A stretch of DNA of 44,437 bases, taken from an uncultured Oscillospiraceae bacterium (GTDB taxonomy: Bacteria > Bacillota > Clostridia > Oscillospirales > Oscillospiraceae). Position numbers and translations under genes: made by a program. The notes under the pieces are model-generated. The model worked only from the letters and a program-made list of their open reading frames with translations. It ran no database searches and was not told the DNA's origin. The stretch covers positions 1 to 44,437 of the forward strand of contig CALWXR010000020.1 in NCBI GenBank assembly GCA_944385535.1, read 5' to 3'. Below are positions 2,578-29,963 of this stretch, piece by piece (the stretch's first letter is position 1; each line of letters opens with the position of its first letter).

Positions 2578-2886
2578 TTATTCAGCAATCTGTATTTCCT
2601 GCGCTAACCGAATGCCGACCTGTACCCCGTGCACAAACCCGGAGCGTTCATGATCCCGGCAGAGGGCGCAGACAGGATTGATAATCCAGTCCATTTCCCG
2701 CAGGGGCATCCCGTTCAACAAGCGGTACAATTCACCAAAATCCGCTTTGATCTGGTCATCGTCTATGCGATTCGCATCGCCGTAAGCCTCGTAGAGCAGC
2801 GAAAGGATCGATTCGCCATCTCCCAGCTTCAGTTTGCGGGACGCAACATAGGTTTCAAGTGCCTGGATATATTCCGCCATGTTCAT
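2578..2886 (-). CDS. Conserved small protein of a Clostridial mobile-element scar
   Basis: About 102 aa starting MNMAEYIQALETY. The sequence is acidic and mostly helical, with the conserved-looking segment IINPVCALCRDHERSG (two Cys, one His) and a C-terminal VGIRLAQE. From memory, similar small ORFs occur beside tnpV in Clostridial transposons, but I cannot name the function. The open frame extends upstream to 3099, but that part reads through the IS110-derived repeat and is unlikely to be coding. The start could be any of the Met codons at 2898, 2886 or 2880; a purine-rich AAAGG near 2900 is best placed for 2886. Confidence 0.6.
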   Translation of the reverse strand: MNMAEYIQALETYVASRKLKLGDGESILSLLYEAYGDANRIDDDQIKADFGELYRLLNGMPLREMDWIINPVCALCRDHERSGFVHGVQVGIRLAQEIQIAE

Positions 2887-2966
2887 ACATATGACCATAC
2901 CTTTCCGCTGCGCTACAAGGCACAAAACAGCATGAAACTGAATTGCCACTAACACAGCTATAGAAT

Positions 2967-3191
2967 ATTTGTTAGAATATACTTGAGGATGCAGGCACAC
3001 TACAGAGCACGTGGAGCTGAGTGGGAACAGTCTGCTGACTGACCGAATACATATGTGTGCCGGACACTCTTTCAAGCACAAATAAATAGGGCTTTGCACC
3101 CTGTAAACTTATCTTTGGAGAGACAGACTAAGGTGGTCTGTCTTCGTACGCCCTTTTCGGGATGGTGCTTAAATCACAATGTTTCAAGCTT
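2967..3191. mobile_element. 225-bp deletion derivative (MITE-like) of the IS110-family element at 10581-12165
   Basis: Both ends match the complete IS110 element in this window, but there is no transposase. At the left, 2967-3000 aligns without gaps to 10581-10614 and is followed by the shared block CTACAGAxCxCGTGGAG and TGAGTGG (3000-3024; 10614-10638). The block GTAAACTTATCT is at 3103-3114 (10723-10734). At the right, CGCCCTTTTCGGGATGG and GCTTAAAT continue to GTTTCAAGCTT (3149-3191; 12123-12165). The 78 nt between the two left blocks differ strongly between the copies although their length is similar (84 nt in the full copy). A perfect 8-bp hairpin (AGACAGAC 3121-3128, GTCTGTCT 3136-3143) precedes the right end. 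It lies at the 3' end of tnpV. Confidence 0.75.
3000..3114 (+). ncRNA. Candidate bridge-RNA gene in the IS110-derived element
   Basis: The segment keeps the flanking framework of the left-end non-coding region of the full IS110 copy (10614-10734), while the interior between 3025 and 3102 has diverged. Conserved outer stems with variable inner loops are what is known for IS110 bridge RNAs, whose loops pair with target and donor DNA. Transcription is not shown; in this family it is driven from the joined ends of the excised circle. Assignment is inference. Confidence 0.4.
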
Positions 3192-3531
3192 AAATCAGCT
3201 CTTCTCGGACAATTTCCTCGGCTCTGGCGTGGATATTGTTCATGCGCTGCACCCATGCCATTGGGTCGCTGGCTTTCAGAGCTTCTGTGATTCCCTCGGC
3301 AATCTTCAACTGGTCGCTTATCCGCTCCAGCCTGTCCTGCGCCTGCTTGTTCAGATCTGCAAGGTATGTCCACAGCTCACCGGACAGAAGCAAGCTGTTA
3401 TAGCGGATCGGCTGGTATTTCCTCAAATACTCCCGGTGCATTCGTCCCCACTTGCCAATGGGACGGGTTTCCTCCGGCAGTGTCAGGTCTGGAATAAAGT
3501 AATCCCCTGCGCGGATATAGTGGATGTTCAT
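3190..3531 (-). CDS. tnpV: TnpV-family transposon protein
   Basis: 113 aa. The sequence has the order of landmarks seen in TnpV proteins of Tn4451/Tn4453-like integrative elements: an N-terminal RAGDYFIPDLTLPEE, a central GRMHREYLRKY, and a C-terminal WVQRMNNIHARAEEIV. The role of TnpV in mobility is not understood. The stop codon (3190-3192) coincides with the right end of the IS110-derived repeat, so the last residues may have been supplied by that insertion; relatives usually carry a few more. No large serine recombinase (TnpX) is present nearby, so this is a relic rather than an active transposon. Confidence 0.8.
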   Translation of the reverse strand: MNIHYIRAGDYFIPDLTLPEETRPIGKWGRMHREYLRKYQPIRYNSLLLSGELWTYLADLNKQAQDRLERISDQLKIAEGITEALKASDPMAWVQRMNNIHARAEEIVREELI

Positions 3532-3885: not shown

Positions 3886-4317
3886 CATACTGATTCTCTT
3901 TTATGCTTATCTGGTTAACTCAGCTTCCGCAAGAAACCAGGTTTTCTATCAGAAAGTATGATGCAAATGGGGGAAAGGTTTGGCGCATCCCTCGTCCGAG
4001 TGCTCCCCTACCCTGCCGGGGGCCTTCCTTTCTTGTCTCGGCAAGAAAGGAAGCAAAGAAGCCGACCGGGGAGGCGCTGAACGCTGGCCAGCTCCCGCGC
4101 CAGAGCCGCCCTCCCCGGACCTCTCCCGGCGCGCACTTGGTAAGTGCCGGTATACCCTTTCGCCGCTGAATGGGTACGGTGCCCGAATCGGTACACAGCA
4201 TCCCAATCACTGCCCAGACTTAAGCCTGTAATTTTTCAGGGAAGCCCGGAGGAATCAACGAACATTCCTCTCTCACCGGCACTGGCAGGGCCTTTGCTGA
4301 ACCAAGTCGATAAGCAT
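3886..4317. repeat. 415-bp structured intergenic repeat, copy 1
   Basis: The core 3903-4317 has the same length (415 bp) as the second copy at 29517-29931 and the two are nearly identical in the centre. Its ends are inverted: ATGCTTATC (3903-3911) and GATAAGCAT (4309-4317), with further imperfect pairing inward. Inside are a perfect 12-bp hairpin (CTTCCTTTCTTG 4024-4035, CAAGAAAGGAAG 4042-4053) and a long GC-rich stem closed by CCGGGGAGG / CCTCCCCGG. An outer arm CATACTGATTCTCTTTT lies at 3886-3902. Open frames across it in several frames are not genes. Similar ORFs are, from memory, common spurious predictions in gut Clostridia. Confidence 0.8.
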
Positions 4318-10508: not shown

Positions 10509-10613
10509 ATCTATAATCCGCCTTTCTGCGAAAGGCACCGACGGGGTTATGAAACCTGCGGTCTTTCGCACATTTTCAAAATTTGTTATGATATCCACGG
10601 AGAGTTCGGTATA

Positions 10614-10734
10614 CTACAGAACCCGTGGAGGTGAGTGGTGGGGCTGTATAGCGGCAACCCCGCATATCTATATGGTTCGGTCGTCCGTTAAGGCATCAAC
10701 GAATGGCGCAAACAAGTAGCCCGTAAACTTATCT
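10614..10734 (+). ncRNA. Candidate bridge RNA in the IS110 left end
   Basis: The region upstream of the transposase contains a conserved frame shared with 3000-3114 and a variable interior with GGGG/CCCC and CATAT/ATATG self-complementary stretches. IS110-group elements are known to encode a bridge RNA of roughly 150-180 nt here, with two loops that specify target and donor DNA. The exact ends and loops cannot be set without structure modelling; the RNA could extend to about 10790. Confidence 0.45.
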
Positions 10735-10809
10735 CTTTCAAATCGACTCGATTTTGCCGGATGACCAGTCACTGCCGAACCCTTCCAATCTTACCTTGGG
10801 AGGTTTATT

Positions 10810-12069
10810 GTGGCTTTTAAGATTTTTCGTAAGAATTGTTGTGGACTGGATGTTCACAAGACCTGGATTTACGCCTGTATTGGAATTACCGACCCAAACG
10901 GACGTACAGAGTATAAGCAGGCTCGCTTCTCCTCTTTTACAAAAGGATTACAGGAGTTGGCTGACTGGCTTGCCAAATACGACTGTACCGATGTTTGCAT
11001 GGAATCTTCCGGTAAGTTCTGGATACCTGTGTTCAATATCCTCGAAAAAACCTGCTGGGTTACTTTGGCACACCCCAAATACACAAAACCGCAAAAAGGA
11101 AACAAGACAGACCGAAAGGATGCCAAGTGGATTTGCGACCTGTATATGTGTGATATGGTCAAGCCCAGCTTTATTCCACCGCCAGACATTCGACAGCTGC
11201 GTGACCTGATGCGCTACCGTATGAAGCTTACCAACATGGTAACCAGCGAAAAAAACCGGGCATTGAATTGTCTCACCGTTTCCAATTTGAAACTGGATGA
11301 TGTGTTCTCAGACGTGTTTGGTAAATCCTCACGTTCCATTATCCACTACATCTTGGAGCACCCCGGTGAAACTTTTGATGTCGCGCCCTTCATCGACAGG
11401 CGCTGCAAACACCCCGTTGAAGAAGTTCAAGCTGCTGTCGATGGGGCCATATCCCACGAACAGGCTGTAAAGCTTCGGGAATGCTTGCAACACCTGGATG
11501 AGCTGGAAACCCACAAAACCAATATTGAAAAGGAGATCCTTCGCTTGGCACAGCAGTATCCCCATCAACTGGAACTGCTGCAAACCGTCCCCGGCTTTTC
11601 TGGGAACGTGATGACTGCCATCGCACTGATCTCGGAAATCGGCGCGGATATGTCGGTATTTCCTTCCGCAAAACATCTGGTCTCATGGGCAGGCTGCTGC
11701 CCTCGAAACGACCAGAGCTCCAAGAAGGTCAAGTCCACGCGCATTTCCCGTGCCGGTGTCTACTTGAAACCTCTCTTGGTTCAGGTCGCCAATGCTGTGA
11801 TTAAGTCCGACAAATATCCGGAGTGCAAAGAACGATACCGCAAAATCAAGGCTCGTCGTGGTCACAAAAAGGCCATTGTCGCTGTTTGCCGTATGCTCCT
11901 GACCGCTATCTGGAACATACTTTCCAAGCTGGAACCCTATTCTGCTGCAGGATATTTGGATGATAAGCTGACGGAACATTCCGTTGTGATTACCAAGTCC
12001 CAGGGATTGGAATTACTCCGCAAAAGAGGTTACATCTTCAAAGACGAAGTCGATCCTGCTCCTGCCTGA
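10810..12069 (+). CDS. IS110-family transposase (DEDD recombinase)
   Basis: 419 aa. The N-terminal RuvC-like domain has the catalytic tetrad D14 (GLDVHKTW), E65 (CMESSG), D101 and D104 (KTDRKDAKW). The C-terminal domain has the helix-hairpin-helix-like TVPGFSGNVMTAIAL and the WAGCCPRNDQSSKK segment, where S303 or S304 would be the conserved catalytic Ser. The frame appears intact, so the element may be active. The start is a GTG (10810) with GGGAGG 6 nt upstream. In this family the protein works with a bridge RNA encoded in the element's own non-coding end. Confidence 0.95.
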   Translation: MAFKIFRKNCCGLDVHKTWIYACIGITDPNGRTEYKQARFSSFTKGLQELADWLAKYDCTDVCMESSGKFWIPVFNILEKTCWVTLAHPKYTKPQKGNKTDRKDAKWICDLYMCDMVKPSFIPPPDIRQLRDLMRYRMKLTNMVTSEKNRALNCLTVSNLKLDDVFSDVFGKSSRSIIHYILEHPGETFDVAPFIDRRCKHPVEEVQAAVDGAISHEQAVKLRECLQHLDELETHKTNIEKEILRLAQQYPHQLELLQTVPGFSGNVMTAIALISEIGADMSVFPSAKHLVSWAGCCPRNDQSSKKVKSTRISRAGVYLKPLLVQVANAVIKSDKYPECKERYRKIKARRGHKKAIVAVCRMLLTAIWNILSKLEPYSAAGYLDDKLTEHSVVITKSQGLELLRKRGYIFKDEVDPAPA

Positions 12070-12186
12070 TGATTCAGACCTATACCTTTACAAAGCCGCC
12101 TTTCTGTCGGCTTGCCTTTCTGCGCCCTTTTCGGGATGGTGCTTAAATTACAGTGTTTCAAACTTTTCTCCTTCCGATTCTACTCT

Positions 12187-29178: not shown

Positions 29179-29963
29179 CATAGGATTCTCTAACGAAATT
29201 CTTTCATCCTAATGTTCTAAATGAGCAAATTCAAATTGTACACAAATTGCAGATAAAGGAAGCAGCCAAAGGCCCCCTTGTGTAAAGGGGGCTGTCACGG
29301 CGAAGCCGTGACTGGGGGATTGACGCGGCGGGGCGCTTCCCTTTTCGCCGGAGTGGGGGCGAATTCGCAGCATTTCACTGCACAATCCCTCAGCCCCTGC
29401 GGGCCAGCTCCCTTTACACTTTTGGAGCCTTGGGGGAGCTCCCGCTCCAGTGCAATTCCGAAATTGTGTGTTTTTCAAATCTGCTCATTTAGAGATCCTA
29501 ATGGATAAAAGATTTCATGCTTATCTGGCTAACTCAGCTTCCGCAAAAAACCAGGTTTTTGTCAGAAAGTATGCCGCCAAACCCGGGAAAGATTTGGTCC
29601 CTCCCTCGTCCAAGTGCTCCCCTACCCTGCCGGGGGCCTTCCTTTCTTGTCTCGGCAAGAAAGGAAGCAAAGAAGCCGACCGGGGAGGCGCTGAACGCTG
29701 GCCAGCTCCCGCGCCAGAGCCGCCCTCCCCGGACCCCTCCCGGCGCGCACTTGGTAAGCGCTGGTATACCCTTTCGCCGCCGAATGGGTGCGGTGCCCGA
29801 ATCGGTACGCAGCATCCCAATCACTGCCCAGCCTTAAGCCCGCCATTTTTCAGGGAAGCTCGGAGGAACCAACGAACATTCCTCTCTCACCGGCACTGGC
29901 TGAGCCTTTGCTGAACAAAGTCGATAAGCATAAAAGATTTTAAAAGAGAATCCGTATGATATG
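29179..29963. repeat. 415-bp structured repeat, copy 2, with flanking arms and a nested MITE
   Basis: The core (29517-29931) has the length and ends of copy 1: ATGCTTATC (29517-29525) and GATAAGCAT (29923-29931), with the same 12-bp hairpin and GC-rich stem. Outside it, CATAGGATTCTCT (29179-29191) on the left and GAGAATCCGTATG (29946-29958) on the right form an outer inverted arm related to the one before copy 1 (3886-3902). The left arm is split by the insertion at 29215-29494. A further 11-bp direct repeat ATAAAAGATTT flanks the core (29505-29515, 29930-29940). Confidence 0.75.
29215..29494. mobile_element. 280-bp MITE with a 9-bp target-site duplication
   Basis: The perfect direct repeat ATCCTAATG lies at 29206-29214 and 29495-29503. 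The ends are inverted: TTCTAAATGAGCA (29215-29227) against TGCTCATTTAGAG (29482-29494), 12 of 13 matching, with further imperfect pairing inward. The body carries GTGTAAAGGGGGCTG and a matching CAGCTCCCTTTACAC, and GTCACGGCGAAGCCGTGAC, a pattern seen from memory in many gut Clostridia. There is no transposase; mobility would need one from elsewhere in the genome. Confidence 0.85.

Follow-up and report, generated by a model that had tools for sequence, protein, structure and literature searches.

A recombinase-less IS110 element with a predicted bridge-RNA region in an uncultured Oscillospiraceae bacterium

Introduction

Is a short stretch of DNA that carries both ends of an IS110 element and no coding sequence a mobile unit, a domesticated RNA gene or simply the product of a deletion? 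The question is raised by a locus near the beginning of contig CALWXR010000020.1 (assembly GCA_944385535.1), whose 44,437 nucleotides, read on the forward strand, are called the window here. The first-pass annotation described a unit of 225 bp (2967..3191), which was thought to keep its own guide RNA and to borrow a recombinase in trans. According to the consulted parts of PMC11208160 and PMC11208158, the bridge RNA of IS621 and the IS110 group is located in the left end, upstream of the recombinase; the handshake guide is defined in the latter paper.

Results

Borders of the element and empty sites

The element and its surroundings consist of the following parts.

2891..3189, plus strand: IS110-family element without coding sequence (CDS), between core dinucleotides (left end conserved across genomes; empty alleles)
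2889..2890, plus strand: left core dinucleotide AT, the target core (empty allele GTTCATAC-AT-AAATCAGCTC in locus L122)
3190..3191, plus strand: right core dinucleotide TT, shared with the reversed TnpV stop codon
2891..3130, plus strand: left end (LE) of 240 bp, with 92% identity to the LE of a sister-species full element
3131..3189, plus strand: right end (RE), 94% identical to the RE in two genomes and 87% to the local full copy
2578..2886, minus strand: gene of 102 codons with no Pfam match; its start codon (2884-2886) serves as the left target
3190..3531, minus strand: TnpV gene (PF14198), with the right target within its 3' end
2899..2905, minus strand: Shine-Dalgarno-like GAAAGG at the outer LE edge, read toward the left-hand gene (from the sequence; kept in relatives)

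The 76 bp to the left of 2967 could still be aligned with other genomes, as far as ATGACCAT at 2891, and beyond this point the aligned genomes diverge into different genes. The short element has a length of about 301 bp, with 299 bp between the core dinucleotides. The absence of a CDS, the shared left RNA frame and the shared right end of the unit first described were all found again (the rightmost 53 bp share 87% identity with the local full copy), but its size had to be corrected, since the true left end is 2891 and not 2967. Both ends of a full IS110 element are present (LE 92%, RE 94% identity), and the DEDD recombinase gene (PF01548 + PF02371) of the full relatives is absent from 2891-3189.

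In other genomes of the genus the TnpV gene and the 102-codon gene adjoin without the short element. An insertion-free border was found in at least 8 of the 28 loci compared, where minus-strand loci were compared unreoriented and L127 also fits. The best empty allele, L122, reads GTTCATACAT-AAATCAGCTC, and the window reads GTTCATACAT-element-AAATCAGCTC. This comparison places the insertion at the core dinucleotide, without a longer target duplication, just upstream of the start codon of the minus-strand gene. Among the 77 distinct elements introduced below, the left core position is TT in 64 and AT in 10.

GAAAGG would replace the displaced native Shine-Dalgarno site of the left-hand gene, as judged from its position and sequence. 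Read toward the displaced start codon, the LE edge (window 2884-2905; LE of L024 to L048) is GAAAGGAATGGTCAT in most relatives and GAAAGGTATGGTCAT in the window, and it holds an in-frame ATG four codons upstream of that start codon (M-V-I-x-M); its AAAGG could form a small hairpin in several relatives. The element may restore the translation of a gene cut off from its ribosome-binding site.

Two further features of the surroundings were observed. The TnpV gene and its short neighbour form a repeated two-gene cassette, of which genomes of several species in the genus have more than one (e.g. G009, G018, G051, G120). A repeat unrelated to the element occurs at 3899-4263 and 29513-29877, 25.6 kb apart, in pieces of 47 and 300 bp that are 94% and 93% identical.

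Predicted bridge RNA

Within the left end the following features were assigned.

2991..3125, plus strand: modelled part of the predicted bridge RNA (covariance model R1: 129.4 bits, E 8.6e-24)
2949..2978, plus strand: weak promoter-like CTAACA-18-TAGAAT upstream of the RNA, with TG before the second hexamer (1 found, against a mean of 0.6 in shuffles)
3013..3020, plus strand: target-loop 5' arm GGAGCTGA, Shine-Dalgarno side
3046..3055, plus strand: target-loop 3' arm AAT-AC-AT (start-codon side and core), followed by a handshake-like ATG equal to the first LE bases
3070..3077, plus strand: putative donor guide UUUCAAGC, which matches TTTCAAGC of the right end exactly

Forty-nine full elements went into the covariance model R1, which excluded the short unit and the copy in G125. 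With this model, of the kind proposed in the first-pass annotation, the short unit was matched at 129.4 bits without being part of it. The score is 133 bits for the two full elements that the genus has in this subclass, both inside the model, and 68.9 bits for the local full copy. The RNA is preserved as in full elements: 63 of the 64 columns that are conserved in at least 90% of them are kept in the short unit, and full elements deviate at 1.5 such columns on average (0 to 9).

Covariation was tested on 27 related RNAs including the short unit, with a hand-defined structure comprising the target-loop stem, its hairpin and the donor hairpin. The claim of a structure rests on this test, because the RNAalifold consensus of all 49 was weak and missed the hairpins. 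Paired cells amounted to 86.3% against 79.1% in shuffles, and changes on both sides of a pair to 44 cells against 14, a value reached by none of the 500 shuffles; slid versions of the structure gave at most 40.3% paired cells and 12 both-side changes. In the same 27 RNAs the count of pair types was not above that of shuffles (18 vs 17.6), and the inner hairpin pairs in just 61.5% of the cells. The fold energy of the short copy is ordinary relative to shuffles (z -1.10 and -0.75), and no Rfam family reached its gathering score in the window. The agreement of the putative donor guide with RE was recognized by eye, without a statistic, and no LE partner of it was found.

Guide arms and flanks

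Both arms of the target loop match the flanks of the short unit itself, AT-AC-AT on the start-codon side and GAGCTGA on the Shine-Dalgarno side. For comparison 94 left ends were collected; 8 had no RNA region, leaving 86 RNAs, and after the removal of 4 without left flank or guide and of duplicates, 77 distinct elements remained. The two bases of the 3' arm together with the core equal the element's own left flank in at least 52 of these 77 (10,000 permutations: mean 7.1, maximum 18), a lower bound since the guides of L041, L059 and L096 were misparsed (at most 2 matches counted, truly 4/4). The short unit, with AC-AT (4/4), is among the 52, and true misfits of guide and flank are L037 and L062.

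The clade inserts between a Shine-Dalgarno segment and a start codon, as indicated by its left flanks, open frames and the motifs of its right flanks and 5' arms. The left flank starts with CAT, the reversed start codon of the neighbour gene, in 72/77 elements, and an open frame of at least 50 codons starts at the flank ATG in 55/65 cases, compared with 154/482 for other nearby ATGs. A Shine-Dalgarno-like 4-mer is present in 53 of 73 right flanks (35% of shuffles); the right flank of the short unit, AGAAGAGCTGATTT, is outside these 53. The 5' arm contains GTGA after AG or GG in 61 of the 86 RNAs, usually as GGAGGTGA. Relative to the gene strand as top strand, the left target is read by the 5' arm, and the right target plus the core by the 3' arm. 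The triplet that follows the 3' arm is mostly ATG or ATA and is similar to the bases with which the donor end begins, in the manner of handshake guides (PMC11208158).

The short unit alone carries GGAGCTGA as 5' arm. The C at 3017 in this arm was met in no other one among the 86 RNAs (word count), and GGAGCTGA is present in 6 of the 8 empty alleles displayed. Across elements, site-specificity of the 5' arm was not found, the match to the own site being 4.73 nt and to permuted sites 4.66 nt.

Guides were also compared between near-identical full copies, a comparison that covers part of the multi-copy genomes and in which 22 of 69 loci were unparsed and at least one more (L216) misread; two events only were recorded. 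In Desulforamulus putei (G319) L204 (1-585) and L208 (1-700) differ in 3 of the 7 guide bases and in 0 of 206 others, and CATAGTT, the guide of L204, is also found as the left flank of its sister copy L218 (1-601), where the guide is still TATTTTT. In G307, L037 and L213 have one flank in common and the guides AATGGCT and AATCATT, with a difference in 1 of 192 other bases. The guide DNA and the left junction are alike (AT-NN-core-AT) and about 160 nt apart, and it may be hypothesized that the guide is rewritten from the flank.

Parentage and deletion

Three features are needed for the origin of the short unit.

10513..12163, plus strand: full-length local IS110 copy, belonging to another lineage (recombinase at 10810-12069; its guide CAT-AT-CT equals its own flank)
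3129..3132, plus strand: deletion junction, LE ...GACTA / AGGTGG... RE (against the full elements L024 and L026)
3121..3143, plus strand: hairpin AGACAGAC-TAAGGTG-GTCTGTCT created by the deletion (from the sequence; predicted stem)

The LE is 92.1% identical to a full-length element of the sister species (G133), 91.7% to G125 and 90.4% to G322, and the RE is 94% identical to G133 and G019. The local full copy, whose recombinase (PF01548 + PF02371) is 58% identical to the enzyme of the sister species, was ruled out as the parent: its RNA is of a distant subclass (68.9 vs 129.4 bits) and closer elements are found in other genomes. The left frame had been described as conserved and the inner 78 nt as different from the full copy; the difference goes back both to a distinct guide and to descent from another parent, and the implied origin from the local copy had to be abandoned. 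The right ends of the short unit (3139-3191) and of the local full copy (12113-12165) are 87% identical despite the distant lineages, and an exchange of ends between IS110 lineages is possible.

LE and RE of the short unit are the ends of full elements minus the intervening CDS: the LE, ending in ...GAGAGACAGACTA, joins directly to the RE, which begins with AGGTGGTCTGTC..., and the recombinase gene is absent. The stem halves AGACAGAC and GTCTGTCT, an 8-bp inverted repeat, flank the CDS in the likely parent. As the junction lies just inside this repeat, slippage across the base of the hairpin is a plausible cause of the loss. In the LE the short unit has 11 private changes, and its three nearest relatives have 2, 0 and 5.

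Search for further copies

In the genome itself (a draft of 121 contigs) the short form is present once, beside a single full copy of related type. A second complete short copy was detected neither in 297 relatives with a DNA query nor, with R1 and a recombinase profile, in 136 genomes of the genus and in 50 carrier genomes, which contain full elements. The window was the sole match of the exact gapped short-form pattern in 400 genomes of the family; the pattern had no match in viral contigs, and blastn gave none in plasmids and phages. As draft assemblies lose multi-copy elements, all copy counts are lower bounds. The proposed mobility of the short form as a unit thus found no support, there being one copy and no other site in the genome, the relatives, the family genomes, the viral contigs, the plasmids or the phages.

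R1 has 8 hits in the genus, 5 of them with a recombinase; the rest are the window unit, G125:C88 and G125:C126. The contig of G125:C126 stops 64 nt after the RNA. G125:C88 is a second candidate without CDS, in which the LE breakpoint at the same CTA is joined to the last recombinase codons and the contig ends 33 nt later; the shared breakpoint could mean common descent of the short forms instead of two deletions. Of the 108 RNA hits in the 50 carrier genomes, at least 98 are accompanied by a recombinase match no more than 400 nt away, and the other 10 sit at contig ends, where 7 of them reach the first recombinase codons (by eye).

Additional IS110 recombinases of the same genome are a distant one at C22 and two N-terminal fragments at contig ends (G000:C83 and C59; L163, L164). 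These fragments belong to another IS110, MEVVYRCCCGIDVHKK..., which is interrupted by the contig ends and is probably multi-copy in this genome.

Discussion

We consider it probable that 2891-3189 is a recombinase-less IS110 element with both ends and a predicted bridge-RNA region, which originated most likely by internal deletion and would require a recombinase in trans in order to move. The central claim of the first-pass annotation, a transposase-free IS110 derivative with an apparently intact (predicted) bridge-RNA region, is upheld, together with the agreement of guide and target, the empty sites and the covarying frame. A full-length parent, with the RNA class and the ends of the sister-species elements, would have inserted here via its guide; the CDS that separated LE from RE would later have been deleted, perhaps through slippage across AGACAGAC/GTCTGTCT or through short homology. 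The insertion may have been tolerated because the LE brings its own Shine-Dalgarno-like segment beside the displaced start codon. The resulting copy is probably stranded, since no close recombinase was found in the draft genome (the local one is the 58% identical enzyme mentioned above). It had been argued that a single copy with neither empty sites nor covariation would be a dead deletion product: the copy is indeed single, but empty sites and covariation are both present. The covariation, however, derives from full-length relatives and is no proof that the short form is alive. The undecayed RNA argues against a long-dead relic, although the post-deletion branch may be a short one; the 11 private changes of the LE, compared with 2, 0 and 5 in the nearest relatives, point the other way.

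It is unlikely that the short form represents a bridge-RNA-only mobile element that is still alive, having itself moved here under the guidance of its own RNA and with the cutting done by a recombinase supplied from outside. The two ends and the two guide arms are intact, as are 63 of the 64 conserved RNA columns, and the sole deviation, G3017C, lengthens the match to the own target (GAGCTGA), which no other arm matches beyond 5 nt; for artificial mini-ISs lacking tnp, movement was obtained with recombinase and RNA provided in trans (consulted parts of PMC11187229), and G125:C88 has the same LE breakpoint. A full-length parent with the same guide would, however, look identical, the 5' arm is generic across elements (that of the short unit also matches one foreign target over 7 nt), and a second complete short copy was lacking in the 297 relatives, the 136 genus and 400 family genomes, the viral contigs, the plasmids and the phages. 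Its fullest form, a natural bridge-RNA-only transposon of 301 bp with its own target and donor guides, which borrows a related IS110 recombinase and spreads between translation starts of gut Firmicutes, has to be regarded as quite improbable.

The well-kept RNA and the LE edge, which sets GAAAGG before the start codon of an intact 102-codon gene, could also be explained by domestication, i.e. an RNA gene or 5' leader kept since the RNA or the ribosome-binding segment serves the neighbour gene. The same edge precedes unrelated genes in full relatives and is thus a property of the element, the gene pair exists without the element in other genomes, and the short element occurs in one genome only; we give this explanation very little credence. 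The fusion of the ends of different copies by an assembly error would be conceivable in a draft of 121 contigs, IS copies often breaking contigs, but it is highly improbable for an element inside a 44-kb contig, whose left end has private bases and whose guide agrees with the site. The most economical reading is an internal-deletion derivative without further spread.

In comparison with IS621 and the IS110 group, as presented in the consulted parts of PMC11208160 and PMC11208158, the location of the RNA, the two-arm target loop including the core, the handshake bases after the 3' arm and the insertion at a core dinucleotide are alike. Unlike in those systems, the short element has no recombinase, and in its clade arms and flanks agree when the gene strand is placed on top, so that the 5' arm reads the element's right flank. 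With the gene strand as top the arm order is IS621-like; in the orientation of the element it is the IS1111 order of PMC11187229, in whose consulted sections the seekRNAs of IS1111 elements have the complement of the top strand first, yet the RNA lies upstream of the recombinase. The same sections describe mini-ISs of ISEc11 and ISEc21, ends without tnp that are mobilised by recombinase and RNA in trans. The short element shares with them the ends without tnp, and its clade the IS1111-type arm order, but the mini-ISs are artificial, whereas this element is natural and keeps its own RNA, in a clade that combines an IS110-like upstream non-coding region with an IS1111-like arm order.

Bacterial MITEs, as reviewed in PMC10969869, are likewise short IS derivatives without CDS, unlike the present element, which is a single copy; it is short, lacks a CDS and has the ends of its parent IS, and several copies at different sites were not seen. 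The word IS110 is absent from the text of that review. QMITE2 of Coxiella was ruled out as an earlier case, since its units are targets of IS1111 and not derivatives (PMC5896051, in part). Our literature search, in the open literature and mostly without full texts, found no natural CDS-less IS110 derivative with its own RNA.

The targeting of start sites is not new, since IS900 does so according to the consulted portion of PMC8141618, where its target motif is given as CATGNNNNNNTCTCCTT, which we read as a reversed start codon and a Shine-Dalgarno segment. The target of our clade, between Shine-Dalgarno segment and start codon, is of the same kind; IS900 differs in being autonomous, and its target has no stated link to an RNA guide in that portion of the paper.

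We conclude that the locus holds a real, well-kept transposase-free IS110 element, which is longer than first described, has a different parent and is probably stranded. If it were mobile, the bridge RNA and the recombinase would be separable in nature and the element would be a natural minimal donor. Even stranded, it provides a clean record: its 301 bp comprise an RNA, the two ends and a target that has been solved, and empty alleles are available. Furthermore, the clade suggests an RNA basis for IS900-like start-site targeting, in which one arm would be a Shine-Dalgarno mimic and the other a reversed start codon.
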